NCBI RefSeq assembly: GCF_000024125.1
Contig: NC_013222.1
Span: 2,334,501-2,398,500, forward strand
DNA from: Robiginitalea biformata HTCC2501
Lineage (GTDB): Bacteria; Bacteroidota; Bacteroidia; Flavobacteriales; Flavobacteriaceae
Reading direction: 5' to 3'
Length of the DNA: 64,000 nt
Part shown: positions 8,403 through 32,655 of the stretch, piece by piece
How positions within the stretch are numbered: position 1 is the first letter of the stretch
How the letters are laid out: the number at the start of each line of letters is the position of its first letter
The notes under the pieces: model-generated
What the model was told of the DNA's origin: nothing
Seen by the model: only the letters and a program-made list of their open reading frames with translations
The model's database searches: none
Translations under genes and position numbers: made by a program

Positions 8403-8407
8403 CTACC

Positions 8408-11965: not shown

Positions 11966-11992
11966 TGGTTGGTTTGTTTAGTTGGTTGGATT

Positions 11993-12863: not shown

Positions 12864-12871
12864 GACCGTCG

Positions 12872-13135: not shown

Positions 13136-13214
13136 GGTGGTGTATTTTACTTGATGCTACTAAGATAGAAATTCCTCAGCATGCAGAAAAGCGCACGCGA
13201 TTTTATGAAATTGG

Positions 13215-13246: not shown

Positions 13247-13288
13247 CCTATGGGACGTGCCGAGCCTTGAAACCAAAAACCTAAAAAA

Positions 13289-13675
13289 ATGCCAAGAGCA
13301 AAACAATCTCAACGAGGCCGGCAAACCAATGGCCACAACCCGTATCGCCCTAATTTTTGGCGATTTTTAGAAAGCACCCTAAATACCTCCATGCAAAAAG
13401 GACAGCTGCCCATGCTCGGGGTTATGCTGTTGCTTGCAATTCTTTTTTGGCGACTTCCAGCCGATGAAATACCCGTTTTTTTCGATAAAGTGCTCTCCTA
13501 CTTACAAAATTTTGCTAATTTCGGATGGATATTGTTCGGAATATCTTTAATTGCATCATACGTTTGGATTAAATGGCAGCGCAGAATCCACACTAGAGAG
13601 GTTCAGCGCATGGCCGACGAGAAACGACGCCTCCAACAAGAGTTGGATGGAAGGCTACCCCCGACGAGCAACTAA
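13289..13675 (+). CDS. Two-span membrane protein, unknown
   Basis: This gene encodes 128 residues. The N-terminus is basic and polar (MPRAKQSQRGRQTNGHN). Hydrophobic helices lie at about 40-56 (LPMLGVMLLLAILFW) and 78-95 (FGWILFGISLIASYVWI). A charged helical tail follows (RRIHTREVQRMADEKRRLQQELD). It is the first gene of a short rightward pair after the divergent promoter region. It has the look of an accessory lysogeny gene; no family recognised. Confidence 0.5.
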   Translation: MPRAKQSQRGRQTNGHNPYRPNFWRFLESTLNTSMQKGQLPMLGVMLLLAILFWRLPADEIPVFFDKVLSYLQNFANFGWILFGISLIASYVWIKWQRRIHTREVQRMADEKRRLQQELDGRLPPTSN

Positions 13676-13693
13676 TAGCGACACGACCCCACC

Positions 13694-14281
13694 ATGCCCA
13701 CACTTTTTTTAATCCTGGTTGTCCTGGCAATCTGGCACTTCATTTATGAAGCAATCTGTGCGCCCGCTATGCGTCACGGGCTTCGGTATAAGTTTTTTGA
13801 GGTTCGCGATGAGTTGCGATACCGGTTAGCCACAGAGGATTTTACCAAAAACGAGCGCAAGGTATTACTGATGATGGACCACGCCCTGTGCGCGACCATT
13901 CGCGATATGAACCTTATTTCTGCCAATAACTACCTGAGTCTGCGCCAGCGTGAGGGGACACTTCCCGAAATTCAGCGATTCGTGCGCGAGAACATTACCG
14001 AAAGCCCTAACGAATTTATCCGTCTTGTAGACGGTCGAGTTCGGGAACTTGTGGTAAGAGCGTTATTTATTAATCATGGCGGGTGGGCCTTATATGTCTT
14101 GCCAATATTTGTTCCGGCCGTAATGATTGCAGCGCTCATTGCAACAGCGGCTTCGAGCATCAAACGCGCTTATGTTAAGGCAAAATGGCAATTTGAAAGG
14201 GTGATTCGCGGAGCTGCTAGTGTGTTCTACGGGTGGGAGCAGCTGCCGACAAGCGCCTACGCGTATACAACTAAAAATTAG
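13694..14281 (+). CDS. Membrane protein with central soluble helical domain, unknown
   Basis: This gene encodes 195 residues. A membrane helix lies at the N-terminus (TLFLILVVLAIWHFIYEA) and a second near 133-152 (LYVLPIFVPAVMIAALIATAASS). Between them is a ~110-residue soluble helical part with many Arg and Glu. It lies 18 nt after its partner gene. Its last 11 bp overlap the convergent integrase gene. It may modify the host envelope or block superinfection, but that is only a guess from place and topology. Confidence 0.5.
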   Translation: MPTLFLILVVLAIWHFIYEAICAPAMRHGLRYKFFEVRDELRYRLATEDFTKNERKVLLMMDHALCATIRDMNLISANNYLSLRQREGTLPEIQRFVRENITESPNEFIRLVDGRVRELVVRALFINHGGWALYVLPIFVPAVMIAALIATAASSIKRAYVKAKWQFERVIRGAASVFYGWEQLPTSAYAYTTKN

Positions 14282-15572
14282 TCCGGTAGGTCGCACTCCA
14301 ATCCTCGGGCAGCACACCCCCAATATCCCGCAAATACTTGCGCAAGGCTTCCTCGCTTCTATGTCGGGTAATTTTCATCAGCCGGGCGACAACCTCCCGC
14401 TCTGGCATGCCATCCTCTATCATCGACTGGAATAGGTCTAGGGCTGCATTGTGCCGGAAACTATAGGTGGTTTTCTCTGGGTCGATTCCCAGGTGATCAC
14501 GCACCGCCCGAAATCGCTTGGCAAAGAAATTCACCTTGTCCCGGGGATTGGTGGGCCAGTGCCCGGGCTTACCGCTTGGGGTGAAAATGTGGTAGTGATC
14601 CGGCAAGTCACCCACCCCAAGGTCCTCCAAAAATTGATACATCGGCTCAATCATCAGAATATGGGATATTTTATCCGCCTTTGTCTCAATGGCCACCGTC
14701 CGCTTTTTCATGTCAATATGCTTTACCTGGACGCTTAAAATTTCCCGGTTTCGCATAAAAGAGTAGAAGATAAAACGCAGGAAATTATAGAGTAGGGGGT
14801 CGAATTCTTTGGTGTAGGCTTGTATGGCCTCCATTTCCTCTTTGGTGAACGGCTGATTCTTCCGGGGCTTTACTTTTTTGGTCTGGATATCGACAAAGAA
14901 ATTGCGATCCGCCCAGCGGTCCTGGACCACTTTAGAGAAAATAGCGCTTAGGTTCCCCTTGTGGTTACTTACCGAGTTGGGGTGCAACTCTTTCCCGTAA
15001 GGCTTGGGGTCGGCCAGGTAGTTCATATAGGCAATCGCGTGGCGCTGGGTGAATGACTCGATTGGATTGCCACCGATCCCCATGCGTTTTATCCACTCCA
15101 AAAAGGGATTCAGGTAATGCCAGTAGCTCTTATACGTGTTGGGTTTGAGGGTCGCTTTTTTGTGCTCCAAAGCCTCAGTAAAGGCCTGGCGGATGCTCGG
15201 GGTCATGTCCGTGCGCTTGCGGGCAACCACCCGGGCGGAATCCTCGTCATACGGGTTAAAACCATCTTCCAAGATCCCGGTTATTGTATTTACCCACGCC
15301 CGGGCGATGGCCTTGCGCTCTTTGATCGTCTTCCCCTGGTTGATGTTGCGGTACGTCTTAAATGGCTGGCGGCCCATTTTACCCGTTATAGGATCCCGGA
15401 AGTAGAAATACACATACCACTGCTTGCTCAGATCGGGCTTGGCCTTGCCTCCGACCATTTTTTTCGGGATATATATTTTAACCTCCGAGTACATCACCTC
15501 TGGCGCACTTTTTCCGGCGTTTGCATACTGTGTGGTATACCTTTTTGCCAGTCGCTTTGAAAAGCCCTTCAT
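14271..15572 (-). CDS. Tyrosine recombinase (integrase) of the element
   Basis: This gene encodes 433 residues. A SAM-like core-binding domain (~110-215) precedes the catalytic domain. The catalytic set is visible: R274 (SFMRNREI), R373-H374 in TYSFRHNAA, H404 in ITRHRS and the nucleophile Y413 (LRKYLRD). The first His of the usual HxxR box is Tyr370, a change often seen in Bacteroidetes integrases. It reads away from tRNA-His, whose 3' end is 68 bp upstream, and so probably recombines in that tRNA. A strong hairpin lies between the two (15590-15628). No excisionase gene is evident in the window. Confidence 0.9.
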   Translation of the reverse strand: MKGFSKRLAKRYTTQYANAGKSAPEVMYSEVKIYIPKKMVGGKAKPDLSKQWYVYFYFRDPITGKMGRQPFKTYRNINQGKTIKERKAIARAWVNTITGILEDGFNPYDEDSARVVARKRTDMTPSIRQAFTEALEHKKATLKPNTYKSYWHYLNPFLEWIKRMGIGGNPIESFTQRHAIAYMNYLADPKPYGKELHPNSVSNHKGNLSAIFSKVVQDRWADRNFFVDIQTKKVKPRKNQPFTKEEMEAIQAYTKEFDPLLYNFLRFIFYSFMRNREILSVQVKHIDMKKRTVAIETKADKISHILMIEPMYQFLEDLGVGDLPDHYHIFTPSGKPGHWPTNPRDKVNFFAKRFRAVRDHLGIDPEKTTYSFRHNAALDLFQSMIEDGMPEREVVARLMKITRHRSEEALRKYLRDIGGVLPEDWSATYRTNF

Positions 15573-15589
15573 TTCTTGGAAAGGCTTGT

Positions 15590-15628
15590 AAACGCCGAAG
15601 CCATGGGGCTTCCCACGGCTTCGGGTTT
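15590..15628. repeat. Long inverted repeat between integrase and tRNA-His
   Basis: CCGAAGCC (15595-15602) pairs with GGCTTCGG (15617-15624). The stem continues inward through ATGGG/CCCAC-type pairs and outward through AAAC/GTTT with one bulge, about 17 bp in all. There is no T-run right after it in either direction, so a terminator role is weak. It may be part of the attachment or integrase control region. Confidence 0.6.
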
Positions 15629-15639
15629 GTAAAAATTAG

Positions 15640-15714
15640 GGTGGAAGACCGGGTTCGAACCGGCGACCTCTGGAACCACAATCCAGCGCTCTAACCAGCT
15701 GAGCTACAACCACC
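15640..15714 (-). tRNA. tRNA-His (GTG)
   Basis: On the minus strand the cloverleaf is complete: G-1 at 15714 opposite C73 at 15640 (the His identity pair), D-arm GCTC/GAGC, anticodon stem CTGGA/TCCAG with loop TTGTGGT (anticodon GTG), and T-arm with TTCGAAC. No CCA is encoded. The acceptor stem holds two U-U mismatches (positions 5-68 and 6-67; GTGGTTG against CTTCCAC). The 3' end is the probable integration site of the element to its left. Confidence 0.9.
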
Positions 15715-17511: not shown

Positions 17512-18495
17512 TCAATCCGACCCGTAAGCGGCCCGGATCATTTCCCGGGTTTCTTCCAGAGATTTAAAGACGTCAAACGTACGGCCTTGTGTGCGCTGGG
17601 CCCCCAGGGCATTTGCAAATCGCGCGGCGCGGACGTAGTCGTCCGGATCCTCCAGCAAACCATAGCCCAATCCGCCGGCAAAAGAATCCCCGCACCCGGT
17701 GGTATCCACCACATCGGCAACCGGGACTGAGGGCACGATTTCCTTTTGCACCTCCCCGCCTTTCTTAAAATACACTGCGCTACCCCCGGCATCCAGGGTA
17801 ACGATAAGCGCTTTAACACCCCGGTCCAGCACGTGCGCCGCCAGGTCGTCCAGGTGGTCCGTGGATACATCGTGGAACGGCTGGAGCTGCTCCAGTTCGT
17901 ATTCCTTTTCAAACCAGCAACAGCGCGACTCCTCCAGGTTCATCTTCAGCACGTCGATATACGGAAGCCAAAGATCCCGGTCTATCCAGAACCGGATCAG
18001 CCGGTCCCCGAGGATCGTGGCGGTGTTCGTCGGGCCGTGGGCATCGAATATGATCAACCCCTGGCTGTTGGCCTTGATGTATTTTAACGTTTCCAGGGGC
18101 ACTTCGTAATCCGTTATGGGCACGCATACAAAGACATCGGCATCCATGAGGCCTTTCAAATCTTCGCCAAGGATGGGGTTCATAAACCCGGTTTGCTTCT
18201 CCAGGCGGTTATTCTGGTCCACAAAGGTCAGCTGGATGATATCGCCCTGATCCGCATCGTCGGTAATATAGTCCTGGGAGATGTTGGAGTAGGGGGCAAC
18301 CACTTCCAATACGCCGGGCCGGTCTTTTTTCCGGACGTGGGACACGGGAAAGACCGTCCCCCGGTCTCCCAGTAAGCGGGAAAGCCCGATGGCGGTATGT
18401 GTGGCACAGCCGTATTTCTCAATGACTTCCCCTTTATGCGTGGTGATATGGTCCCTGGGGATCGGCCCCAGGACAGCTGCCTTATATGATTTCAT
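17512..18495 (-). CDS. PfkB family carbohydrate kinase
   Basis: I use ATG 18495 (MKSYKAAVLGPIPRDHI), which gives 327 residues and the normal family N-terminus; the longer frame to 18648 adds unrelated residues and runs towards the tRNA-Ser promoter. The signature near the C-terminus is DTTGCGDSFAGG with the catalytic Asp270. The N-terminus carries a ribokinase-like substrate loop (GCATHTAIGLSRLLGD). The family phosphorylates sugars or nucleosides with ATP. The substrate cannot be read from sequence. Confidence 0.82.
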   Translation of the reverse strand: MKSYKAAVLGPIPRDHITTHKGEVIEKYGCATHTAIGLSRLLGDRGTVFPVSHVRKKDRPGVLEVVAPYSNISQDYITDDADQGDIIQLTFVDQNNRLEKQTGFMNPILGEDLKGLMDADVFVCVPITDYEVPLETLKYIKANSQGLIIFDAHGPTNTATILGDRLIRFWIDRDLWLPYIDVLKMNLEESRCCWFEKEYELEQLQPFHDVSTDHLDDLAAHVLDRGVKALIVTLDAGGSAVYFKKGGEVQKEIVPSVPVADVVDTTGCGDSFAGGLGYGLLEDPDDYVRAARFANALGAQRTQGRTFDVFKSLEETREMIRAAYGSD

Positions 18496-18621
18496 GTACC
18501 TTGGTTTAGCTTGTAGAGGAAGATATGAATTTCCCTTCAATTCCCGCAACACCCCGGCTGCCGGTATTATTTCGCCATCACAAATTCTTTCGCTACCCGG
18601 GCTTCTTTCGAAAAAGCTTTT

Positions 18622-18629
18622 TATATTTG
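18622..18629 (+). promoter_or_regulatory. Promoter -7 box of tRNA-Ser
   Basis: TATATTTG is a perfect TAnnTTTG box, 23 nt before the first base of the tRNA. Confidence 0.6.
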
Positions 18630-18652
18630 CACCCGCAAAGACACGCATACCA

Positions 18653-18737
18653 GGAGGAATGGCAGAGTGGTCGAATGCGGCGGTCTTGAAAACCGTTGAG
18701 GGTCAAACCTCCGGGGGTTCGAATCCCTCTTCCTCCG
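18653..18737 (+). tRNA. tRNA-Ser (TGA)
   Basis: Acceptor stem GGAGGAA/TTCCTCC, discriminator G, anticodon loop TCTTGAAAA with anticodon TGA, a long class II variable arm (TTGAGGGTCAAACCTCC) and T-loop TTCGAAT. It is 85 nt and no CCA is encoded. All stems pair well. Confidence 0.95.
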
Positions 18738-18862
18738 CAAAGCAAAACGCCTCACAGAAAGTGAGGCGTTTTTTGTTTCCGAAAGCCAGGAAAGCGAGCT
18801 TTCAACTGGCTAAAGGAAACAAAAAAAGCGAACGGCGAAAGCCGTTAGGCGTTTTGCTTTGC
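18737..18862. repeat. Nested inverted-repeat block (three hairpins inside an outer stem)
   Basis: An outer 16-bp inverted repeat joins 18737-18752 (GCAAAGCAAAACGCCT) and 18847-18862 (its exact complement). Inside it lie three hairpins. One is the tRNA terminator. The second is a 24-bp interrupted palindrome at 18769-18826 (T-run, GTTTCC, AGCCAG, GAAAGC against their complements). The third is AACGGC-GAAA-GCCGTT at 18831-18846. The outer stem and the terminator compete for the same bases 18744-18752. There is no coding sequence. Confidence 0.8.
18744..18774 (+). terminator. Intrinsic terminator after tRNA-Ser
   Basis: AAAACGCCTCAC (18744-18755) and GTGAGGCGTTTT (18761-18772) form a 12-bp perfect stem with an AGAAA loop and a T-run. 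It begins 6 nt after the tRNA. Confidence 0.85.
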
Positions 18863-18873
18863 AGGATCTCCTT

Positions 18874-19124
18874 TCAGGGATCACGAGCGCAGCGAGTAAT
18901 CCCTTCTCAGATGATTGAAACCCCAGTTTTGTAAGGGGTTGGGAATGAAAAACCAGACTATGCGAACGCATAGTGGGTTTTTGGTATTGCAGGTCCCACT
19001 CTCAGGGATCACGAGCGCAGCGAGTAATCCCTTCTCAGATGATTGAAACCCCAGTTTTGTAAGGGGTTGGGAATGAAAAACCAGACTATGCGAACGCATA
19101 GTGGGTTTTTGGTATTGCAGGTCC
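18874..19124. repeat. 128-bp tandem duplication with terminator-like hairpins
   Basis: 18874-18996 and 19002-19124 are identical over 123 bp as far as I can read, with a period of 128 bp. Each unit starts TCAGGGATCACGAGCGCAGC and holds a small stem AACCCC/GGGGTT. Each then has a long hairpin (AAAAACC, ACTATGCG and complements, e.g. 18948-18982) with an internal AA loop. The end of the nested block before it (about 18851-18873) looks like a diverged copy of the unit end. The short frames here are rejected as genes. Confidence 0.85.
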
Positions 19125-19187
19125 TTTGCCGCCGCATCGCCTGGCCCCTCATTCCAAGGCCAAATCGTTGGCTTTGTCAATCGGTCC

Positions 19188-19213
19188 GGATCACGAGCGC
19201 AGCGAGTAATCCC
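19188..19213. repeat. Third, partial copy of the repeat head
   Basis: The 26 bases starting GGATCACGAGCGCAGC match the beginning of each 128-bp unit. Only this head is present. Confidence 0.7.
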
Positions 19214-19531: not shown

Positions 19532-20974
19532 ATGCTTTTCAACTCTTTTGAGTTTTTGCTTTTCCTGCCGGTAATGGTGGCCGGGTATTACCTGATCCCC
19601 TTTGCCTACCGCTGGCTTTGGCTTTTGCTGGGGAGTTATTTCTTCTACATGGCCCATGAGCCCTGGCTGGTCATCCTTTTGCTGATTTCCACGGTGGTGG
19701 ACTATTTCTGCGCCCTGCAAATCGCCAGGACGGGCTCCTGGCGAAAGAAGATGTACCTGGTAATCAGTATACTGGTCAATGCGGGAATGCTGATCGCATT
19801 CAAATATTTGTCCTTTATCACGGAGAATATCCGGGAGATCCTGCATTTTTCCGGGGCGGGCTCCCCGGCTGAAGCCGAAACCGTTTCATATAGGATCGGG
19901 CAAATCCTCCTGCCTGTCGGGATCTCGTTCTACACGTTCCAGACCATGAGCTATACCATCGATGTGTATCGGGGCGCGACCAACCCCGAGAAGCACCTGG
20001 GTAAATTTGCCCTTTATGTGGCCTTCTTCCCGCAGTTGGTGGCCGGGCCAATTGAAAGAGCCTCCCGGCTGCTCCCGCAATTAAAAAAGCGCATCGGTCT
20101 GAATCTTGAGAACCTGAGGCAGGGCCTGGTGATGATGGCCTGGGGATTTTTCCTGAAAGTAGTGATCGCCGACCGGTTGGGAATCTATGTGGATGAAGCG
20201 TATTCGGATCCTGAAAACCACCACGGCCTTCCGCTTTTGGTGGCGGCATTTTTCTTTGGCTTCCAGATTTACTATGATTTTGCCGGTTACACCTCTATCG
20301 CCATCGGCGCGGCCAAAACCATGGGCATCGATCTGATGCAGAATTTCAACCGGCCATTCTTTTCCACGTCCTCCGCCCAATTCTGGAGGCGGTGGCATAT
20401 TTCCTTTATGCGCTGGATGATGGATTACCTCTACCGGCCACTGGTCAAGAACCTGGGGTGGCCCCGTATTGCCGCCGTTCTCCTGGTCTTTTTCTTCAAC
20501 GGCCTGTGGCACGGCGCCAGCTGGTCATTTGTGATGTGGAGTATGCTGAACGCGCTCTTCCTGGTGGTGGAATTAGGTACGGCCCGGTGGCGGACCCGGC
20601 TGTTCCGGTCCCTGGGATTGCCTCGCAAGGCCATCTCTGCTGCCGGCTACGTTGCCGTGATGGGCTATATGATGCTCACCCTGGTCTTTTTCCGGGCCCC
20701 TTCCCTGGAAGAAGCATTTATCTATTTCGGGCAAATGCTCCGGGTAACCAACTGGCATGTGAATATCCTGGGGAATTACTTTGAGTTCTTTTTGAGCTTT
20801 ACGCTGATCCTCTTTGCGCAGACGGTGCATTTCTTTAAGGGAAACAGCCGGATCTACGAATTGATTGAGAACAAGCCGGTGTATCGGAGGTGGGGCATCT
20901 ATCTGGGCTATATTCTGGTCATTACGCTCTTTGCGATTAACAGGCAGAATTCCTTTATCTATTTTCAATTCTAG
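19532..20974 (+). CDS. MBOAT family O-acyltransferase (AlgI/DltB-like)
   Basis: This 480-residue polytopic membrane protein has the MBOAT catalytic histidine at H327 in GLWHGASWSFVMW and the preceding AQFWRRWHISF motif. The family moves acyl groups, usually acetyl, from a cytoplasmic donor across the membrane to surface polysaccharides or other glycans. The next gene (gap 5 nt) codes an SGNH-like partner, the classic pair for polysaccharide acylation. The six GNAT-like genes that follow on the same strand suggest one operon. Acceptor molecule unknown. Confidence 0.9.
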   Translation: MLFNSFEFLLFLPVMVAGYYLIPFAYRWLWLLLGSYFFYMAHEPWLVILLLISTVVDYFCALQIARTGSWRKKMYLVISILVNAGMLIAFKYLSFITENIREILHFSGAGSPAEAETVSYRIGQILLPVGISFYTFQTMSYTIDVYRGATNPEKHLGKFALYVAFFPQLVAGPIERASRLLPQLKKRIGLNLENLRQGLVMMAWGFFLKVVIADRLGIYVDEAYSDPENHHGLPLLVAAFFFGFQIYYDFAGYTSIAIGAAKTMGIDLMQNFNRPFFSTSSAQFWRRWHISFMRWMMDYLYRPLVKNLGWPRIAAVLLVFFFNGLWHGASWSFVMWSMLNALFLVVELGTARWRTRLFRSLGLPRKAISAAGYVAVMGYMMLTLVFFRAPSLEEAFIYFGQMLRVTNWHVNILGNYFEFFLSFTLILFAQTVHFFKGNSRIYELIENKPVYRRWGIYLGYILVITLFAINRQNSFIYFQF

Positions 20975-20979
20975 GCAGC

Positions 20980-21942
20980 ATGATCCGATTTCTTGGTAAG
21001 TTATTGCTATTCAGTTTTGTGTTGTCTGCAACATACCTGCTACTGGTCCATAAATTGTCGCAGGGTTATGTGGATATGTATTACCCCAAATTTACTCAAC
21101 CGGGCGGAAGCCTGGTCCTCGGACTGTCCCGCGCAGACCAGGGCATAGACCCCTCCCTCCTCCGGGAGGAGCTCAGGCCGGCTGACTTTGCAGCCCCTTT
21201 TGTAAACTTCGCGTCCAACCAATCCTATTACGGGGAGGTCTACCTGAAGGCCATTCGGAAGAAGGTGCCCGCCAATGTGAAAAACGGGCTGTTTATCCTG
21301 TCCGTGACGCCGGGATCATTTACCGCTCCCAAAAAGGCGGGAGATCGGGAGCTGGTCAAAATGGATGAGCACACCATCATGGGCAAGACCGGGAACTTCA
21401 CAACCCAACCCAATTACGACTACATTATGAACTGCTATGGGCAGGCGCTCTACAACTCCCTGCACACGCTCACAGCCTGGAAAAACCTGACAACCCATGA
21501 AGACGGGTGGAATGAAGTCCGCATGCAAAGCGGGGAGCAGGAGATCACAAAAAAGGATATCGCTTTCTGGAAAGCCCAGAACCTCAGTTTTTACAACCGG
21601 AAAATCCGGACGGAAGCCGTCCGGGATCACCGAAAGGAATATCTGGAGAAAACCATCGAATACCTCAAAGGCCATGGGAATGTGCTCCTGGTGCGGCTAC
21701 CGGCCGATCCGGATATCATCGAACTGGAAAACCAGACGTGGAACGGATTTGACGGGCACATGGATTGTATTGCCGGGCTGCATGGCATTCCCTATCTGAA
21801 TTATTCGAAGGGTTTTGACGGGATGGAAACCTATGACGGCTCCCACCTGGCTTCTGAAAGCGCCAGGGAATTCACCCGGATGCTGGCCGCCGATATCCGG
21901 GAAATCGTGACAGATCAACAACTGGCAACAAAGACACCTTGA
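20980..21942 (+). CDS. SGNH-like acyl-transfer partner (DltD/AlgX-type plan)
   Basis: This gene encodes 320 residues with an N-terminal membrane anchor (LLLFSFVLSATYLLLV), so the body is periplasmic. The GLSRADQGID block carries the likely nucleophilic Ser, and YDGSHLAS near the end supplies the Asp286/His289 pair. Overall similarity to known families is low, so the catalytic assignment is by motif and by pairing with the MBOAT gene. It would accept the acyl group from the MBOAT protein and place it on the final acceptor. Its stop overlaps the TTG that could start the next gene. Confidence 0.7.
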   Translation: MIRFLGKLLLFSFVLSATYLLLVHKLSQGYVDMYYPKFTQPGGSLVLGLSRADQGIDPSLLREELRPADFAAPFVNFASNQSYYGEVYLKAIRKKVPANVKNGLFILSVTPGSFTAPKKAGDRELVKMDEHTIMGKTGNFTTQPNYDYIMNCYGQALYNSLHTLTAWKNLTTHEDGWNEVRMQSGEQEITKKDIAFWKAQNLSFYNRKIRTEAVRDHRKEYLEKTIEYLKGHGNVLLVRLPADPDIIELENQTWNGFDGHMDCIAGLHGIPYLNYSKGFDGMETYDGSHLASESAREFTRMLAADIREIVTDQQLATKTP

Positions 21943-21956
21943 AATTTATTCCAAAC

Positions 21957-22973
21957 ATGTCGGTGAACACCAATCCGTTTTTGACGTCTACATACACCCA
22001 TGTCTGGCTTTCCCATTTTCACAAGGGGGAGCAGGTATTTGATTTTGGGTTTATCAGGGGCCTGAAATTCGTCAAAAAGCCCGGGAAGCCCTTGTATGTC
22101 AATTGTTGCGGCCGGGATAGTAAAGCCATGGCATACCGGTTGGAAAACCACGGCGTACAGCAACCCCGCCGGAAGGTGTTCCTGATTTACGATGTCCCTT
22201 CCAATTGGCCGTCACCAGAGGCCTCCGGCAAACTGCGTTTGAAAAAATCGAGGCAGTACCCGGGCTTCCTATGCAACCTGGAAAAATACGAAAGCCTGGA
22301 CCAGTACATGGCCGCGCATCTGAGCGGGAAAACGCGGAATAAGTTCCGGAGATACCGCAGGAAACTCGAAGCGGATTTCGATATTTCCTACCAAACGCAT
22401 ACCGGGCCCATGGAGCGGGCGGATTTTGATTTGCTTTTTGACCGCTTCCACGCGCTGCTCCGGAAGCGATTCGAGCAGAAACAAACGGTAAACAACAATC
22501 TTTTTGAACACGAATGGCGCTTTTACAAGGATGCCGCCTTTGCGATGCTGAACGACAACCATGCGGCCCTGTCGGTGGTTTATGACAAGGACCAACCCAT
22601 TGCGTTTTCACTCTTGTTACTGAAGGGCCCCCACGCCTATGATACGCTTCGGACTTTTGACATTGCCTATGCCAGCTACCGATTGGGGACGGTCAGCATA
22701 ATGGCCCTACTGGAATGGTGTTTCAGGAACGGGATAGATAAGCTGGATTTTGCCAAGGGATATTTTTCGTACAAAGCGCAGTGGGCCAATGAGGCCTACC
22801 ATTACGATTACCACATCCTGTACGATCCGCATTCGCTGTATTGCCGGTTGTGGGCGGGATATCTTAGAGTGTACTATTCCCTGAAGCAATGGCTCAGGGA
22901 CCGGCGGGTGAATGAAAAGTTCCACCGGGTTGCGTTTGGAATGAAAAAAATAATTGCATTCGCATCTCCGTAA
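21957..22973 (+). CDS. FemAB/GNAT-like acyltransferase, paralogue 1 of 6
   Basis: ATG 21957 gives 338 residues; TTG 21939, overlapping the SGNH stop, is an alternative. Array landmarks are present: LIYDVPSNW, 'RNKFRRYRRKLEADF', RFEQKQ with an N-rich follow-up, 'DQPIAFSLLLL', 'DIAYASYRLG' and LEWCFRNGIDKLDFAKGYFSYKAQW. This is the Acetyltransf_6 (CelD/BioF2-like) fold, which transfers acyl or aminoacyl groups to amines or sugars. No membrane segment is seen. It lacks the ~50-residue C-terminal extension of paralogues 3-6. Substrate unknown. Confidence 0.78.
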   Translation: MSVNTNPFLTSTYTHVWLSHFHKGEQVFDFGFIRGLKFVKKPGKPLYVNCCGRDSKAMAYRLENHGVQQPRRKVFLIYDVPSNWPSPEASGKLRLKKSRQYPGFLCNLEKYESLDQYMAAHLSGKTRNKFRRYRRKLEADFDISYQTHTGPMERADFDLLFDRFHALLRKRFEQKQTVNNNLFEHEWRFYKDAAFAMLNDNHAALSVVYDKDQPIAFSLLLLKGPHAYDTLRTFDIAYASYRLGTVSIMALLEWCFRNGIDKLDFAKGYFSYKAQWANEAYHYDYHILYDPHSLYCRLWAGYLRVYYSLKQWLRDRRVNEKFHRVAFGMKKIIAFASP

Positions 22974-22983
22974 TAATCCAAAA

Positions 22984-23943
22984 ATGACCGGGACTGCAAG
23001 CACATATGGCGAATTAGGTAAGGCAAAGTTGGTTTTTGACCTCTATTTGCGCAGGTGTGTGGTTCCCCTATTCAACCCTTGCGTACGCAATACGCTGCTG
23101 GATGCGCAATGGCATTTCACCGCCAAACCGGATTCCGCGGCAGCAGACAGGGTAGTGGTAGTCAAAGACATTCCGGACTACCTGGCGTTGGAGGCAAATC
23201 CGGCCTGGGAGAAATTCAAACACCTCGAAGTTAGGCAATATGGCGGAATGCTCATTGCCCTAAACAGGTACAGGGACCTGGAAGATTACCTGAACAACCA
23301 ACTCAGCAAACGGAACCGCAAGAATCTTCGCGCCAAGCTAAACAAGCTGAATCGGGATTACCCCATTTCCTTTGCCACGTATCACGGTGCCATCCCCCGG
23401 GAGGTACACAGACGGTTATTCGATGCATTCCGCCAGCTCCTGGCCCAGCGGTTTCAGCAGAAGGGAATGGCCAACCGGGATCTTGAACGATGGAGTTTTA
23501 TCGAGGACACCAGCCTTCGGATGATCCGTTCCGGAGATGCTTCGCTATTTGTGATTTTTTCAGCCAACCAGCCGATTGCCCTGACGCTTAACTTTCATGT
23601 CGGGTCGATGATCTATAGCCATATGCAGACCTACGACATTGCCTATTCCTCCTATAACCTGGGGGATATAGCCATGTTCAAGCAACTGGAGTGGTGTTAT
23701 AACAACCAAATTGCAGCCTATGACTTCCTGATAGGGGAGTCTTATTATAAATCCAAATGGGCCGATTTCCCCTACCGATACGCCTATCGAATTTATTACC
23801 GGAAAGGAGATTGGTTCGGAATGGGAAAAGCGCGTCTGTTACAGCACTTTTACCAGGTGAAACAGTTTCTGAGGGATCGCGGGATTGCCGGAAAAATAAT
23901 TTCGAGAGACCGTTGGCGGTATAAAAGACAGCGCAATGATTAG
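22984..23943 (+). CDS. FemAB/GNAT-like acyltransferase, paralogue 2 of 6
   Basis: I use ATG 22984 (MTGTASTYGELGK), 10 nt after the preceding stop; the frame is open further back but would overlap. The product has 319 residues, the shortest of the set. Landmarks are VVKDIPDYLALE, 'YRDLEDYLNNQLSKRNRKNLRAKL', QRFQQKGMANRD, 'ANQPIALTLNF', 'YDIAYSSYNLGD', and LEWCYNNQIAAYDFLIGESYYKSKW. It ends soon after the core with a basic helix. It overlaps the next gene by 8 nt. Confidence 0.78.
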   Translation: MTGTASTYGELGKAKLVFDLYLRRCVVPLFNPCVRNTLLDAQWHFTAKPDSAAADRVVVVKDIPDYLALEANPAWEKFKHLEVRQYGGMLIALNRYRDLEDYLNNQLSKRNRKNLRAKLNKLNRDYPISFATYHGAIPREVHRRLFDAFRQLLAQRFQQKGMANRDLERWSFIEDTSLRMIRSGDASLFVIFSANQPIALTLNFHVGSMIYSHMQTYDIAYSSYNLGDIAMFKQLEWCYNNQIAAYDFLIGESYYKSKWADFPYRYAYRIYYRKGDWFGMGKARLLQHFYQVKQFLRDRGIAGKIISRDRWRYKRQRND

Positions 23944-25135
23944 AATTGATTTTATAGACGATTTCCTGGAGCATCGGGAGGCTTTGCCCTACATCGTGGG
24001 GTTGGAAAATGCGTTTACGGAATTGAAGGAGGAATTGCGGTGGGAGAAGAACCCGGGAAGCCGGGCAGGGGGCTATTTGCTTTCCGACCTGCCCGGATAT
24101 TTCAGGCTTGAAACCCCTTCGGATATCCGGACTGTGTCTATCGATTCCTATAAGGGGTCCTATATCCGGTTGTCCGATTATCGCGACTTTGACGAATATT
24201 ACCGCCGCAAAGTCAGCAGCAAACGCCGCGCAACCCTCAAGAGCCATGAAAGGCGCCTGAGGCATTGCCTGCAGGTCCGGCATGAGATATTCTTCGGCTC
24301 CATTTCCAAGGCGGACTACGACGCGCTATTTGCCGCATTCCGGGAAATGCTGGAAAGGCGGTTCGACCAGAAGCAGGCGTACAATTCGGATCTCAGGAAC
24401 TGGGAACGGTACAGGGAATCCTTTTACCCGCTGATCCTGAAGAAGCAGGCGTGTATCTCGGTCCTATGGCACGAAGACCAGCCGATTAGCTTCAGTGTGA
24501 ACCTGGTCCATTCCCAGGTGATTTACGGCTACCTGAAGTCCTTCGACACCGATTACTCCAGGTTTTCATTGGGATTCCTTGAGTTTAACCTGCTGCTGAA
24601 ATGGGCATTTGATAACGGGATTAAGCTCTTCGATCTCCTCAAAGGGCAGTATGAATATAAAAACAAGCTCACCGACGGGGTATATTATTTCAAGCGAACC
24701 GTGATCTTTCCCAAAAAATCACTCCCCGGTGTATTGCGGGCCTGGTTTACCGCGATGCAGATTAAAACGGTTTATGCTGCTGTCCGGTTCCTCAAGCGTT
24801 TTGGCGTCCATGTTGTGGTCCATAAATTTATATCCTATAAGGAGAAAATCCTCAGCAGAAGCACCTCTAACCGGCACCGGGAGTCCTATGTCATCCGGCC
24901 TGTTGAACAGGACTGGAAACCCGCTGATCTCCTTCCGGCGGATCTCCTTCCGGCCGATCACCTTCCGGTGGAATCGTTGCATACAGACCACCGGTTCCTG
25001 CGCAAGCCTGTACTCGAATTCCTGTTCCGGAATAAGGAAAAATTTCGGGAGGTCACCATTAGCAGGATGAATGACGAGGGGCGTAACTTCCTGATAAAGG
25101 GAGAGAAAGCCTCCGCGATTATCACCTTTAATTAA
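23936..25135 (+). CDS. FemAB/GNAT-like acyltransferase, paralogue 3 of 6, with C-terminal extension
   Basis: This gene encodes 399 residues. The core matches its neighbours (LLSDLPGYFRLE, 'RRATLKSHERRLRHC', RRFDQKQAYNSD, 'DQPISFSVNLV', 'FDTDYSRFSLGF', LLKGQYEYKNKL). After the core come ~50 residues and then a tandem repeat ADLLP-ADLLP-ADHLP coded by three 15-bp units (24926-24970). A final ~50-residue module follows (LRKPVLEFLF ... FLIKGEKASAIITF), shared with paralogues 4-6. The extension looks like a separate small domain joined by a flexible repeat. Confidence 0.78.
   Translation: MIRIDFIDDFLEHREALPYIVGLENAFTELKEELRWEKNPGSRAGGYLLSDLPGYFRLETPSDIRTVSIDSYKGSYIRLSDYRDFDEYYRRKVSSKRRATLKSHERRLRHCLQVRHEIFFGSISKADYDALFAAFREMLERRFDQKQAYNSDLRNWERYRESFYPLILKKQACISVLWHEDQPISFSVNLVHSQVIYGYLKSFDTDYSRFSLGFLEFNLLLKWAFDNGIKLFDLLKGQYEYKNKLTDGVYYFKRTVIFPKKSLPGVLRAWFTAMQIKTVYAAVRFLKRFGVHVVVHKFISYKEKILSRSTSNRHRESYVIRPVEQDWKPADLLPADLLPADHLPVESLHTDHRFLRKPVLEFLFRNKEKFREVTISRMNDEGRNFLIKGEKASAIITFN
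24926..24970 (+). repeat. Three 15-bp tandem repeats inside paralogue 3
   Basis: GATCTCCTTCCGGCG, GATCTCCTTCCGGCC and GATCACCTTCCGGTG follow each other in frame and code a linker of DLLPA-type repeats. The number of units could vary between strains without breaking the frame. Confidence 0.85.
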
Positions 25136-25147
25136 ATCCCAGGCCCG

Positions 25148-26308
25148 ATGGAAAGAGAAATATTCCTGAAAGATTTCCTGGAACAAAAAGACCCCTGGTT
25201 TGCCACCCGGCCTGCCAACCGATCCCTCCTCAGGTTCGACGGGGCGCGTTTTAAAAGCAAGGAGGAAACCCTGCTCATCAGGGATATTCCCGGGTATTTC
25301 GAAATTGACCGGACAAGCCTTCCCGGGAAGGTCGCGCTTGCAACCGTCACCACCCACCAGGGGTTCTACGTAGATTTAGCCCGCTACGGGGATTCCGAAA
25401 CGTATTTTCAGGAGGCGATCGGGTCCAGGAGCCGCTCCAACCTGAGAAGATACAGGAACCGGCTGGAAACCTGTTTTGACATTGCATACCGGGATTACTT
25501 CGGCGCTATTGAATTGGACGAGTACAACCGGCTTTTTGAGGTGTTGGAGGGGTTGCTGGTCCGGAGGTTCCGGGAGAAGGGGGAGGAGAACTATGAGTTG
25601 CAGCATCTGGGTCATTTCCAGGCCGTGCTGCGCGATATGATCCTCGATAAAAAGGCCCATCTGTTTGTGATCTATCACGGCCATAAGCCCATCAGTATCC
25701 GCATCAATATGTTCAGGGACGAGATGGCGTATTACATAATCAGCGGATACGACATCGACTATTCAAAATTTCACCTGGGTTTCATAGACATGGCCATGAG
25801 CATACAGTGGATGTTCGCGAATGGTTTTGACAGGTACGACCTGCTGAAAGGGTACGGATACTATAAGAAGAAATGGACCCGGGACAGCTATTTTTGCCGG
25901 GATTGCTATATCTATGATCGCTCCAGACCTGTCGCCTGGGGCGTAACCCGCATGTCCGTACTTAAGTCCCGCATCCGGTACGGGCTGTACCGCTGGCTGA
26001 AGAACCGCCCGGCCGGGAAGCTTGTGAAATCGCTTCGCAAGACAATTGCGGGGCCCCGAAATGCCGGAGGGGCCGCTTCCAGGGTAATCGAAGGGGGTCC
26101 GGCTGAAATCCAACCTGAGAAACTGGGCCTGGAAATCGATATTGAGAACCAGCCGGAATACCGGGTCTTGAGACAGCCGGTTTATCGCTTCTTGTTTTAC
26201 TCCCGGGAAGCCTACAGAGATCTCCGGGTATACGCGCATAAAGAGCGGGACGATCTGTTTTTTATCCGGGGCAGAAATAAGAGCCAGACCCTAGTCGTTC
26301 AACACTAA
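25148..26308 (+). CDS. FemAB/GNAT-like acyltransferase, paralogue 4 of 6, with C-terminal extension
   Basis: This gene encodes 386 residues and starts 12 nt after paralogue 3. It is a very regular member: LLIRDIPGYFEID (~43-55), 'YVDLARYGDSETYFQEA', RSNLRRYRNRLETCF, RRFREKGEEN, 'LFVIYHGHKPISIRI' (~178), 'YDIDYSKFHLGFIDM' and FDRYDLLKGYGYYKKKW (to ~244). A basic linker leads to the shared C-terminal module LRQPVYRFLF ... LFFIRGRNKSQTLVV. There is no signal peptide, so it acts in the cytoplasm on a precursor before export, if it works like other FemAB-type enzymes. Confidence 0.8.
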   Translation: MEREIFLKDFLEQKDPWFATRPANRSLLRFDGARFKSKEETLLIRDIPGYFEIDRTSLPGKVALATVTTHQGFYVDLARYGDSETYFQEAIGSRSRSNLRRYRNRLETCFDIAYRDYFGAIELDEYNRLFEVLEGLLVRRFREKGEENYELQHLGHFQAVLRDMILDKKAHLFVIYHGHKPISIRINMFRDEMAYYIISGYDIDYSKFHLGFIDMAMSIQWMFANGFDRYDLLKGYGYYKKKWTRDSYFCRDCYIYDRSRPVAWGVTRMSVLKSRIRYGLYRWLKNRPAGKLVKSLRKTIAGPRNAGGAASRVIEGGPAEIQPEKLGLEIDIENQPEYRVLRQPVYRFLFYSREAYRDLRVYAHKERDDLFFIRGRNKSQTLVVQH

Positions 26309-26323
26309 CCGACCCAGGCAACC

Positions 26324-27529
26324 ATGGAAGTGTATAAATTCTTTTTGGATATCCTGTTCCGGGCCGATAGCCGGCAACGCTACTTTGACAGCGTGCTGAA
26401 TACTTTTACCGGGGAAACCGTCTACGAGGAAGCCGCGAACCCGGAAGAGGCGCCGATGAGACAAGGCGCCACCTTTGTGGACGTGCCCGATTACCTTTCC
26501 CCTCGCTATACGGGGGGCGATAATTCCCTGCGAATCCTCAAAGTGCCCTTGTATGAAGGGTATCTGGTGGATCTCACAAGGTTTGGGGATGTGGAGGACT
26601 ACCTGAGGAACCACGTAGGGAAGGCGCGATACTCTCAACTCCGACGGTATAAAAAGCGACTGGATCTCTGTATTTCGCCCAGATACGTGGCCTATTACGG
26701 CGAAATGGACGAGCGGGAATACCGGTTTGTCTTTGAATGCCTCAGGGAGTTTACCGAAAAGCGGTTCCGGCAGAAGGAAGAGATCAACTACGAGCTTCCC
26801 TTCCTGGCGTATTACGAAGAAGTCATGTATCGGATGATCCTTGAAAAAAAGGCGCTGTTGTTTGTTATCTACGACGGCAAGAAACCGATCAATATCACCC
26901 TGAATTTTATTTTTGGCGACCTGATGCTGCACTGGAATAGCTGTTTTGACATCGACTACGGAGTATTCAACGTGGGCCATATCAATACCATGGAACATTT
27001 CCGCTGGTGTTTCAAAAACAATATTTGCGTATTCGATATGGGGCGCGGCAATTTCTGGCATAAGCAGCGGCTGATCAACCACACCTACCGCTACCAACAG
27101 CACATTGTCTGCAAGCGGACCTTCCTGTCGGTTTCCAGGGCTGTTCTTTATGCGGCCCGGCCCTATTTGAGGTATTACCTGATTCGCGGGCTGAAAAAGG
27201 TCAACGCTCAGAAACTGTACGGTTACTATGCAAAATACCGGTTCAGGAGCCGACAGCGGGACGGCCATTCCCCAGCAGTTTCCGAAAGTACAGAATATAC
27301 ATGGAGCGATGCAGCCGGGGCGGTGCCTCCGACGGAATGCCTTCGGGCCGTCTTCCCGGGGGAGGAGGGGTATGCCCGTCTCCGGGGTCCCTTCAACCAG
27401 TTCCTGCATCGGGAGAAAATTTCACAAACCGGGGTGCAGGTATTTGAGCAAGCAGGTTCCGAAGACAGTTTTATTATCCGTACCCCCGATAAAACCCTGC
27501 AATTATCCTTCAATCAAAAAATCGCTTAG
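26324..27529 (+). CDS. FemAB/GNAT-like acyltransferase, paralogue 5 of 6, with C-terminal extension
   Basis: This gene encodes 401 residues, 15 nt after paralogue 4. Landmarks are FVDVPDYLSPR, 'YLVDLTRFGDVEDYLRN', 'YSQLRRYKKRLDLC', KRFRQKEEINYE, 'LFVIYDGKKPINITLNF', 'FDIDYGVFNVGH' and MGRGNFWHKQRL. The last block departs most from the others (HKQ in place of YKKKW), so its active site may differ. The shared C-terminal module is also the most diverged (LRGPFNQFL ... FIIRTPDKTLQLSF). Confidence 0.78.
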   Translation: MEVYKFFLDILFRADSRQRYFDSVLNTFTGETVYEEAANPEEAPMRQGATFVDVPDYLSPRYTGGDNSLRILKVPLYEGYLVDLTRFGDVEDYLRNHVGKARYSQLRRYKKRLDLCISPRYVAYYGEMDEREYRFVFECLREFTEKRFRQKEEINYELPFLAYYEEVMYRMILEKKALLFVIYDGKKPINITLNFIFGDLMLHWNSCFDIDYGVFNVGHINTMEHFRWCFKNNICVFDMGRGNFWHKQRLINHTYRYQQHIVCKRTFLSVSRAVLYAARPYLRYYLIRGLKKVNAQKLYGYYAKYRFRSRQRDGHSPAVSESTEYTWSDAAGAVPPTECLRAVFPGEEGYARLRGPFNQFLHREKISQTGVQVFEQAGSEDSFIIRTPDKTLQLSFNQKIA

Positions 27530-27534
27530 GGATT

Positions 27535-28695
27535 ATGGTCAGAACGCCAATCGGTTTGTTGCTAACGCTTTTCCGCGAATGCCGGATCCCGGATAAATTT
27601 TCCCATGTGGGGAAATTCGGGGAGGTGCCCATCGATGCCCAAAGCGAACTGGACCAACTCCCATGCCCGCCCGGGCAGGTGTGCTCCTTCAGGCTGGCGC
27701 CGGGCTACATGCAATTCCACCTGAAGGACCCCGGGGATACCCTGGTACGCATCCCGCAGCAAAACTGGGGCTATTCGATAGACCTGGAAGGCTGCGCCAC
27801 GGCAGACGATTACCTGCAAAAACAATTCAAATCCAAATATCGAAGTATTATCCGGCGGTATGTAAAACGTTTGGATGCCTGTTTTAAGACGGAGTACGTA
27901 ACCCATGGGGAAGACCTCGCCCCCGACCACTACGAGTCTCTTATGGAGGAGTTGAAAACCATGATAGACCGGAGGTTTGGCCAGCGGAAAGAATCGCACA
28001 AGGAAGAGAAAAACTGGAAGGACATCCTGGCGAATTCCCACGATTTAATCCGACGGAACAAGGCCTCCCTGTTTGTTATTTATGCGGACGGGGAACCGAT
28101 TGAAATTTCGCTGAATTACCACTTCAACGGGATCCTGTTCAGTTGTATTTCCTCCTACGATATCGACTATTCCAAATTCGGCCTGGGCCATGTGGAAATC
28201 TACAAACAACTGGAATGGTGCCTCGCCAACGGGTTCCGCGTTTTTGAAATGGGTGTTGGCGGCATGGACTACAAAAGGCGGTGGAGCAATAACATCTACC
28301 AGTTTGAGCACCTGGTAATCTTCAAAAACGGCTGGCCCCAAAATGCAAAATCCCGTTTGGAGGTTGCGCGCATCCGGATCAGGGAATACCTGAAGTCGAA
28401 AAAGGTCAATGAAATCCCCCACCGACTGAAGAGCCGGTTTGCCACTTGGGGCCGGGGAGGGGATGCCGATAAAGGCCCCGACATCCGGGATGCAGACCCG
28501 GCCGGATGGGATGGGGATTGGCACCCGGTAGACTGGATTTCAGGCGAGCACGCGTACCTCCGGAGCCACGTCTTTGATTTCCTGTATTCCAGCGAGGAGC
28601 AGAAAAAGGATGTTGAGGTGTACGAATCGCGGGTGCATCCGGGACACTATGCAATCAGGGGGGCGAAAAAAGCCAGGGAACTCCGGTTTTCCTGA
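27535..28695 (+). CDS. FemAB/GNAT-like acyltransferase, paralogue 6 of 6, with C-terminal extension
   Basis: This gene encodes 386 residues, 5 nt after paralogue 5. The usual DIPGY block is weaker here (YMQFHLKDPGDTLVRIP). The rest fits: 'YSIDLEGCATADDYL', 'YRSIIRRYVKRLDACF', RRFGQRKESHKEE, 'LFVIYADGEPIEISLNY', 'YDIDYSKFGLGHVEI', LEWCLANGFRVFEMGVGGMDYKRRW. The C-terminal module reads LRSHVFDFLYSSEE ... YAIRGAKKARELRF. It is the last gene of the array. No obvious terminator was found directly behind it. Confidence 0.78.
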   Translation: MVRTPIGLLLTLFRECRIPDKFSHVGKFGEVPIDAQSELDQLPCPPGQVCSFRLAPGYMQFHLKDPGDTLVRIPQQNWGYSIDLEGCATADDYLQKQFKSKYRSIIRRYVKRLDACFKTEYVTHGEDLAPDHYESLMEELKTMIDRRFGQRKESHKEEKNWKDILANSHDLIRRNKASLFVIYADGEPIEISLNYHFNGILFSCISSYDIDYSKFGLGHVEIYKQLEWCLANGFRVFEMGVGGMDYKRRWSNNIYQFEHLVIFKNGWPQNAKSRLEVARIRIREYLKSKKVNEIPHRLKSRFATWGRGGDADKGPDIRDADPAGWDGDWHPVDWISGEHAYLRSHVFDFLYSSEEQKKDVEVYESRVHPGHYAIRGAKKARELRFS

Positions 28696-31064: not shown

Positions 31065-31505
31065 TTATTTGGCAGGGGTAGACGGCGTCGAAATCCGAGC
31101 TCCATCCACCCATTCCCCGTAAGTGACAGGCCTCAGGTATTCGATCAGCGCGACGATCATCTGATCTTCCCCGATATTTTGCAGGTCGTTGACCATTGCG
31201 GCACTCTCAATGGACCGGGTTACGGTTTCTCCCCGTTCAAAAATCAACAGGTCGATAGCCCCTTTGCAGGATCGCGTAATTGCCGTACCTCCTGTAAGGC
31301 AAACCAGCGTGAATTTATGCTGCAATACGCGGAAGGGGATCCGTTCATAGGGCTCCATGCCAAAGACCTTCAATCGCATGTGCGAGTCCTCGTGAAGGAT
31401 GCAATCCTGACCTTCCGCAAGTTGATTCAGCGAGTGGAGTTCATTCAGGTGGTCCGGGTTCCATCGGTCATAATATCCCTCCCGGTTTAATTCAATGCGC
31501 TTCAT
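31065..31505 (-). CDS. Cupin-like small protein, unknown
   Basis: This gene encodes 146 residues. A beta-rich pattern with regular Gly and Pro turns ('HMRLKVFGMEPYERIPFRVLQHKFTLVCLTGGTAI ... IFERGETV') suggests a single-stranded jelly-roll (cupin), but the metal-binding His set is incomplete. It is the last gene of a minus-strand group that includes a receiver, a STAS-like protein and a sigma-54 activator, so it may be a sensor or adaptor. Function not recognised. Confidence 0.5.
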   Translation of the reverse strand: MKRIELNREGYYDRWNPDHLNELHSLNQLAEGQDCILHEDSHMRLKVFGMEPYERIPFRVLQHKFTLVCLTGGTAITRSCKGAIDLLIFERGETVTRSIESAAMVNDLQNIGEDQMIVALIEYLRPVTYGEWVDGARISTPSTPAK

Positions 31506-31579
31506 AAAAGTATTCTCAGTTTATTGTTAAGGTTCGGGGGAACATGATCAACTATTTGTTTTTATATCGTTTGCTTTGG

Positions 31580-32002
31580 TCAATGGGGACCCGAGGATAA
31601 ATCCTGCAGGATTTCTCTGATCCGCTCCACGGTGATCGGTTTTTGGATAAAACCCGCGCAATTCTTGGGGACATGATGACCCATCCGGTCGGAATACATG
31701 GCGTGGGTCAAATAGGCTCTCTTTTTTTTATACAGCCCGCCTTTCAGACCATAGAGGGAGTTCAGGAATTCCGGTCCGCTCATTTGCGGCATGTTGATTT
31801 CCACCAATATCAGGTCCGGAACAAACCGGTATTCCGGGGAATCCGGTAGCACCTGTGTTTTTAAAAATTCGAAGGCCTTTTCCGTATCGAGGAATGTAAG
31901 GATCTCCGCCTGCCGGAACTCGCTATCCAGATTCCGCTGGGCGATATACAGGTCGATTTCGTTGTGGTCTACCAACAGGATTTGCATGGGGTCATCTTTC
32001 AT
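31580..32002 (-). CDS. Stand-alone receiver domain with Glu in place of the phospho-Asp
   Basis: This 140-residue CheY-like receiver has LLVDHNEID at the start of the fold and the conserved Lys in GFIQKPI. The acceptor position reads LILVEINMPQMSG, so residue 68 is Glu where Asp is normal. Glu at this place often mimics the phosphorylated state. There is no output domain. The start overlaps the STAS-like gene end by 11 nt, so the two are co-translated and may bind each other. Confidence 0.82.
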   Translation of the reverse strand: MKDDPMQILLVDHNEIDLYIAQRNLDSEFRQAEILTFLDTEKAFEFLKTQVLPDSPEYRFVPDLILVEINMPQMSGPEFLNSLYGLKGGLYKKKRAYLTHAMYSDRMGHHVPKNCAGFIQKPITVERIREILQDLSSGPH

Positions 32003-32420
32003 TTGTACGGGATTTTTGGCTTGCGGCGGCTACCAGCGAATCGCAGAATCGTTTGGCGTCCGGCATGTTTGTACAGATGGCCGAGGGTGTTTTCCGGTGG
32101 ATAAGACGCACGTATGACTGAACGAGCAGGCGGATGGACAGGGATTGCACCACATAGGCTTCCCCAAGTATCAGCGGAATGCGCTGGCACCTTGCAGAGA
32201 GTATCTTAGCCGTATCTGCCGACAACGTCCCCCGGGCTTGCCTGAGGTCAACGACTAACGGCATGGGTACCCCCCGGCATAGATCGTGGATGACCCGCAG
32301 GAATTGCTGATAGTTGCGGGCGGTGCATTGTGCGATCTTGCTAATGTCGTCAAACCGACAGTAAAGTACGCCTTCATGCGCCCAGAAAGATACCTGGTTT
32401 GCGATATTGGTTTTTTCCAT
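31992..32420 (-). CDS. STAS-like small protein
   Basis: This gene encodes 142 residues. The alternation of strands and helices (WAHEGVLYCRFDDISKI, 'PLVVDLRQARGTLSADTAKIL', 'LVQSYVRLIHRKTPSAICTNMPDAKRF') resembles anti-sigma-factor antagonist (STAS) folds. A similar uncharacterised group occurs in many Bacteroidetes. No clear phospho-Ser motif is visible. It is coupled with the receiver gene. A partner-switch role is an inference. Confidence 0.5.
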   Translation of the reverse strand: MEKTNIANQVSFWAHEGVLYCRFDDISKIAQCTARNYQQFLRVIHDLCRGVPMPLVVDLRQARGTLSADTAKILSARCQRIPLILGEAYVVQSLSIRLLVQSYVRLIHRKTPSAICTNMPDAKRFCDSLVAAASQKSRTNER

Positions 32421-32655
32421 TTAAAAGCTGCTGGCCCGGATTCGGGTTGCCGGCAATTGTTTGGGGGAAGCAGAATGCCGGTCCGTGCTGCCAAAGTCAG
32501 GACCAAGGAGTGTGCCAAAAAGAATTTGGAAACGTATAGTAGGCTTATAGACAAGAATTTAGACCCTGGATAAAAACGGAAGGATCCGATAGGGAAGTGA
32601 CGGTATTCCGTTACCGTAGGGCCGTAAACAAGGAAAACCACGGCATACCGCGAAA

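Follow-up and report, generated by a model that had tools for sequence, protein, structure and literature searches.

The question raised by one locus of Robiginitalea biformata HTCC2501 is what a bacterium might make with six related transferases whose genes lie head to tail behind that of a membrane O-acyltransferase (MBOAT). The locus occupies positions 19532-28695, on the forward strand, of a 64,000-nucleotide (nt) stretch referred to here as "the window" (NC_013222.1, 2,334,501-2,398,500, in a genome that is a single contig of 3,530,383 bases), in whose coordinates features are given. It consists of eight open reading frames (ORFs), which encode the MBOAT, an SGNH-fold partner and six Acetyltransf_6 paralogues labelled A-F in gene order. 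A first-pass annotation made from the sequence had described an MBOAT, an SGNH-like gene and six tandem related genes, and this observation is confirmed: all eight ORFs were found at that place and on that strand. The cassette, whose gene set and order recur in other genera with each of A-F as an ancient clade of its own and, in most of the relatives opened, among exopolysaccharide (EPS) genes, is likely an EPS-decoration module.

Layout and family membership of the cassette

The MBOAT gene (19532-20974), which scores 99.1 bits against PF03062 (cut-off 27 bits), is followed after a gap of 5 nt by the gene of the SGNH-fold partner (20980-21942), and this in turn overlaps A by 4 nt. The paralogues follow on the same strand with their scores against Acetyltransf_6 (PF13480) as shown in brackets: A at 21939-22973 (75.2 bits); B at 22954-23943 (66.4 bits), which reads from a TTG start and overlaps A by 20 nt; C at 23936-25135 (75.1 bits), overlapping B by 8 nt; D at 25148-26308 (59.6 bits), after a gap of 12 nt; E at 26324-27529 (36.0 bits), after 15 nt; and F at 27535-28695 (56.1 bits), after 5 nt. 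The spacing expected from the first pass, gaps of 5-15 nt or short overlaps, is therefore what is seen, with the overlaps ranging from 4 to 20 nt. Between 18.6 and 29.0 kb there are 5 sigma-70-like sites where shuffled sequences give an expectation of 10.1, the consensus used not being that of the Bacteroidota; a Bacteroidota promoter consensus has two matches in the window against 0.81 expected, and neither is near the cassette.

All six paralogues exceed the curated Acetyltransf_6 cut-off of 22 bits (36.0-75.2 bits), and none reaches the cut-off of either of two FemAB profiles: FemAB (PF02388, cut-off 24 bits) gave no match at an E-value of 1 or better in any of A-F, and FemAB_like (PF04339, cut-off 27 bits) gave 17.4 bits for C and 23.7 bits for F, both under the cut-off, with no match in A, B, D or E. 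The proteins align over the core, as the first-pass single-pathway reading required, with 21 columns invariant in all six, and B-F are 23-31% identical to A. The sequence blocks said to be shared by every paralogue are present in most members and not in all: DIPxY is replaced by DVPSN in A and LAPGY in F, RRY is absent from B and C, and LEWC is absent from C, D and E, while RF, the glycine and the lysine of the last block are kept throughout A-F. A C-terminal domain of about 80 residues, made of helices and strands (24881-25135 in C) and barely probed by fold search, is common to C-F and absent from A and B of the window.

The FemAB-like fold proposed in the first pass is supported by the model of C, though the likeness is remote. 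The predicted structure of C (predicted local distance difference test, pLDDT, 92.6) has a double GNAT fold, for which, among the families listed in the fold search, the nearest matches are FemX, at the top, then Sbb17/Sba18 and MprF, with acetyl-coenzyme A (CoA) GNATs ranking lower; the lipid aminoacyltransferases MprF and aPGS are both among the nearest folds. By membership A-F are thus Acetyltransf_6 proteins and not FemAB proteins as Pfam defines them, and C is FemX-like in its predicted fold. One arginine and one lysine (Arg142 and Lys242 in C numbering) are invariant in 138 of 138 relatives, and the residue before Lys242 is Y, F, W or H in 133 of them. All 73 cassette proteins keep Gly74, Arg142, Phe143, Pro183, Gly213, Trp223, Gly237 and Lys242.

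The first two genes have the features of an acyl relay. The MBOAT, the sole PF03062 match in its own genome and 59 and 61% identical to two colinear orthologues, carries a GLWHG histidine motif and has FIYFQF at its C-terminus, an ending common to all 33 MBOAT ORFs listed (duplicates counted). This end fits the FXYXXF acyl-shuttle motif, whose tyrosine carries the acyl group in PatA according to the account in PMC12148441. The SGNH gene has no Pfam match, and a PDB sequence search with it returned nothing relevant; its model (pLDDT 77.7) matches SGNH/GDSL enzymes, PatB included. Ser50, Asp286 and His289 do not vary among the 14 partners compared and are, on the model, putative catalytic residues. 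An MBOAT domain with its histidine, an FXYXXF motif and an SGNH fold with Ser, Asp and His are all present in the pair. A Dlt D-alanylation system in the window was considered and rejected, since no DltA or DltC gene is found among the ORFs beside the cassette.

Recurrence of the cassette and divergence of its six positions

A survey of gene neighbourhoods in the Flavobacteriaceae, which the first-pass annotation had suggested, found that the cassette recurs. With five named contigs merged with others of equal length, the order MBOAT-SGNH-A-B-C-(C')-D-E-F occurs in 12 independent loci, the window included, a number that is a lower bound and not a census. Ten of these are complete; L074 is without A in the row, an A-type gene lying beyond it on the opposite strand, and L075 is without E, while a second C is present in three cassettes. 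The loci span at least seven genus codes, and in two genomes of other genera (G015 and G028) the same eight genes stand in the same order as one-to-one best hits. A chance arrangement is excluded because colinear orthologous cassettes occur elsewhere. A search of named genomes for the E orthologue gave eight loci, of which seven have the cassette and L068 does not; the hosts are Flaviramulus multivorans, Flavivirga amylovorans, an uncultured Flaviramulus, Gaetbulibacter sp. 4G1, Flagellimonas sp. 389, an uncultured Flavobacteriaceae bacterium and Wocania arenilitoris.

The wider family of transferases was sampled at several depths. Among 60 relatives searched at an E-value of 0.001, matches occur in 14, some of them weak; of 397 genomes of the family, 89 have members at 1e-30 (up to four candidates being scored in each), and loci were opened in 21 of the genomes listed as having members. 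In a draw of 395 genomes from the class only two had matches at 1e-30, the genome of the window and another member of its family. A protein database searched with the E profile yielded 51 proteins, of which 44, including that of the window, score at least 347 bits. The first pass had held that absence from close relatives, together with scattered internal promoters, would speak against a single pathway, and on the first point the outcome is divided: none of the nine congeners searched, one of which is just 74% complete, has the cassette (five have other or weak family matches), yet it is colinear in other genera of the family. In its own genome, beyond the window, the family profile finds a member at 2259 kb and, close to glycosyltransferases and a Bac_transf gene, a pair at 2199.7-2202.1 kb. 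Searching with PF13480 brings in a third gene, the FemAB (PF02388) gene at 2202.4 kb, together with two weak matches at other sites.

In the main tree (73 cassette proteins, LG+G4) each of A-F forms its own branch, with bootstrap and Shimodaira-Hasegawa-like approximate likelihood ratio (SH-aLRT) values of 99-100/98-100: 100/100 for A, 100/99 for B, 100/99 for C, 99/98 for D, 100/100 for E and 100/100 for F. Position labels change 5 times on this tree, the minimum possible, against 47 times in shuffles; the window's own rows were flagged for long end branches and odd residue make-up. A broader, quickly built tree of 144 rows again has exact groups for A, C, D and E (SH-aLRT 85, 89, 99 and 94), while B takes in four rows from other arrays and F takes in one. 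Identity averages 48-55% within positions and 28% between them, and twelve core columns, conserved to at least 90% in five or six of the positions, show three or more different residues from one position to another. The separation of the six predates either the divergence of the genera or the movement of the cassette between them, and all six have been kept since in 10 of the 12 loci. Because each position is a clade of its own, A-F are old and, on their sequences, probably non-redundant, which bears out the first-pass claim.

Related arrays occur without the MBOAT-SGNH pair. Fourteen such arrays, L043, L048, L050, L051, L053 and L076-L082 among them, have 2-7 members each (one is cut by a contig end, and another has two fragment members). 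An A-type gene comes first in 13 of the 14, L055 being the exception, where shuffles average 4.6 and never reach 13 in 10000, and an A-type gene also leads 11 of the 12 cassettes; since the labels come from profiles built in this analysis and the loci were picked among strong matches, this polarity is suggestive. A two-gene array within the cassette locus L069, both of whose genes are A-type, lies outside the count of 14. In 10 of the 14 arrays A is preceded by a gene similar to the FemAB gene of L043, and PF02388 was checked and confirmed in four of these. A relative of the OmpA-type gene of L065, judged by similarity and with Pfam checked for a few, is present in eight of the 14 loci.

Product of the cassette and donor of the transferred group

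The neighbours of the cassette, which were counted by similarity to reference neighbours, part of them with Pfam or NCBIfam names, indicate the kind of product. A family 4 glycosyltransferase (GT4) gene follows F in 7 of the 12 cassettes. Downstream genes encode a Bac_transf phosphoglycosyl transferase in 7 and a DltA-like adenylating enzyme in 7, a carrier protein being called beside five of the latter; 8 of the 12 have at least one of the three. The surface-polymer role proposed in the first pass is supported by these neighbours, and of its two suggested products, a lipid or a capsule, a polysaccharide fits better than a lipid by the context in relatives. Directly before the cassette, L062 and L064/L070 have a further MBOAT-SGNH pair along with an adenylating enzyme and a carrier protein; the L062 enzyme scores best with an amino-acid adenylation model, at 294 bits against a cut-off of 317. 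Three cassette loci contain an ATPgrasp_ST-like gene, and FemAB-like genes lie upstream in L065 and L075. A divergent right-handed beta-helix protein, about 610-670 residues long where whole, precedes the MBOAT in 6 of the 12 (L045, L047, L061, L063, L069 and L071) and may act on the polymer as a lyase or an epimerase.

The reading tentatively placed first, with a likelihood that approaches an even chance without reaching it, is that A-F are FemX-like transferases, each responsible for one decoration step on an EPS precursor, and that the MBOAT-SGNH pair acylates the polymer outside the cell. In the cytoplasm the six double-GNAT proteins would each add a different unit, most likely an aminoacyl group, for which aminoacyl-tRNA is the preferred donor. 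The acceptor would be a polysaccharide precursor linked to a lipid or a nucleotide, modified at its amino sugars or on its lengthening side chain, and A would carry out the initial attachment, common to all. Once the polymer is outside, the MBOAT would load an acyl group onto the tyrosine of its own C-terminal FIYFQF and pass it to the SGNH partner, which would place it on the polymer. A more specific form of this proposal, itself rather unlikely, is that A-F constitute a ribosome-independent assembly line fed by aminoacyl-tRNAs, in which A would set the first amino acid on an EPS sugar and B-F would extend it in gene order. If so, each array of 2-7 enzymes would spell one peptide side chain, and variable arrays would give different peptidyl-polysaccharides.

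Several observations weigh against the proposal of FemX-like transferases acting on an EPS precursor. The fold evidence covers C alone among the six paralogues, and the likeness of C to FemX is remote (template-modelling scores of about 0.35-0.39 by query length, 9-16% identity); Lys242 could be equated with the FemAB lysine (Lys305 of FemXWv) only through a very weak profile alignment (probability 0.5, E 0.11), made with hhalign between A-F and neighbouring FemAB. PDB sequence searches with A-F gave no relevant match, the basic character of the C-terminal segment is shared by the core of A-D and so is not specific, and the identity ranges overlap, the lowest value within positions being 0.29 and the highest between them 0.37. 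Four cassettes (the window's, L065, L074 and L075) are without adjacent EPS operon genes. In the window no polysaccharide gene adjoins the cassette, so that its transferases would have to act on a polymer from another locus, and the best match in this genome to the relatives' DltA-like enzyme is at 26% identity and more than 1 Mb away. Lastly, two array members outside the cassette, L053:2799-3731 and L053:3948-4847, carry at about residue 215 the strings QKYGLG and RKYGMG, which resemble an acetyl-CoA loop and are unlike the cassette proteins.

These last two proteins favour a rival in which the module and the polymer are the same and A-F are N-acyltransferases fed by acyl-CoA or by thioesters on carrier proteins; each would acylate its own amino group in the repeat unit, as HfsK might. 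Such donors are a serious possibility, less probable than the aminoacyl donors that are preferred here. They would suit the name of PF13480, which is that of an acetyltransferase domain, the DltA-like enzymes and carriers found near the cassettes together with a further GNAT, and the Caulobacter proteins HfsK and CC2278, which modify the holdfast polysaccharide and do not cross-complement, as described in PMC5362036. The fold ranking of the C model, however, favours enzymes that use aminoacyl-tRNA, and the CoA-loop string [RQ]xxGx[GA] occurs in 2 of the 73 cassette proteins and in neither at the loop, which is a weak test, since 0 of 5 neighbouring GNATs serving as positive controls carry it.

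The two remaining explanations concern the acceptor and the need for six genes. The product could be another surface molecule, namely an aminoacylated lipid, a lipopolysaccharide core or a peptidoglycan branch; the nearness of MprF and aPGS in fold and the lack of linkage between the window's module and polysaccharide genes are in its favour, but it is made improbable by the polysaccharide-gene neighbours in 8 of the 12 loci and by the action on polymers of the MBOAT-SGNH pairs discussed in PMC12148441. That A-F are largely redundant, being kept for dosage or by neutral tandem duplication, is very improbable. Tandem arrays of 2-7 members are indeed common among the loci opened, and the three second copies of C might be taken in the same sense; the presence of one clade per position across genera in a kept order, the eight core residues intact in 73 of 73 proteins and the twelve position-specific core columns all argue otherwise, and as a principal explanation redundancy was rejected on the clade test.

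Genomic setting and comparison with known systems

The window's cassette is isolated, in a variable region next to the gene for tRNA-Ser(TGA) (18653-18738, forward strand), which together with the PfkB gene at 17512-18648 bounds this region. The region (18653-45594) is about 27 kb long here and about 2-10 kb in the five congeners in which both ends were seen. Genes like those at 45594-50051 follow tRNA-Ser in 5 of the 8 congeners opened; the stretches read in G004 and G005 have other genes after it, partly like those at 31065-35064 of the window, and in G001 the contig ends. After tRNA-Ser, at 18852-19213, a 128-nt unit is present as a tandem duplicate (94% identical), with a 26-nt piece of it present a third time. 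A search of 12-32 kb for direct repeats of at least 18 nt that bound the cassette gave no convincing pair, D6 and D7 being short, two-copy and imperfect. A probable integrated element lies at 5378-15713, where a tyrosine recombinase gene (14271-15572) adjoins tRNA-His (15639-15713); it holds genes for an ArdC-N/MPTase-PolyVal protein (8408-11965) and an Amidase_3 protein (6336-6947), an ORF partly matching a type II methyltransferase (12117-12929) and a 1TM-TIR ORF called by PADLOC (13694-14281). The idea that the cassette is cargo of this element was rejected, because the recombinase is at tRNA-His and the cassette lies beyond an M28-type gene, the PfkB gene and tRNA-Ser.

No description of the cassette was found among the titles and abstract openings listed in searches of the open literature, subscription papers and preprints being outside that scope, and the combination of an ordered, orthologously fixed set of six with one MBOAT-SGNH pair and with arrays led by an A-type gene appears to be new. 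With a fixed and ordered set of six, kept distinct and nearly always led by an A-type gene, the question of donor and acceptor becomes testable. If the donors are aminoacyl-tRNAs, the cassette would represent a relay longer than FemX-FemA-FemB, acting on an EPS, in the Flavobacteriaceae.

In the FemABX system several paralogues (FemX, FemA and FemB) act in turn on one precursor. The cassette resembles it in the double GNAT fold predicted for C and in a possible equivalent of the catalytic lysine, and differs from it in that A-F miss PF02388 and that the neighbours in most relatives indicate an EPS and not peptidoglycan. The MBOAT-SGNH pair resembles the PatA-PatB and DltB-DltX-DltD relays, as they are outlined in PMC12148441, in its MBOAT-type C-terminal FXYXXF tyrosine motif (found in DltX in the Dlt case) and its SGNH-fold partner; unlike them, it falls under the DltB equivalog cut-off (the MBOAT reaches 138 of 375 bits) and is followed by six transferases. 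FemX-like transferases in polysaccharide pathways have so far been single or scattered in the accounts of HfsK and PapO. PapO, of the Pseudomonas Pap cluster, is a GNAT with a remote likeness to FemX in a polysaccharide cluster and is, as presented in PMC7716237, the single gene of its kind there, in contrast to the ordered set described here.

The best functional precedent for A-F, by analogy, is HfsK with its paralogues. As PMC5362036 describes it, HfsK of the Caulobacter crescentus holdfast is a double-GNAT, FemX-like protein with a C-terminal extension, which shifts between membrane and cytoplasm under the control of cyclic di-GMP and whose orthologues often adjoin EPS genes. HfsK, CC2278 and CC1244 are about 30% identical and serve one EPS; the triple mutant is without holdfast, and one of the three has no phenotype if deleted alone (PMC5362036). 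Compared by description and not by sequence, this group and the cassette share divergent FemX-like paralogues and a link to EPS; the Caulobacter genes are three and scattered, with no MBOAT-SGNH pair mentioned in the passages of PMC5362036 that deal with them, whereas those of the cassette are six, in a fixed order, behind such a pair.

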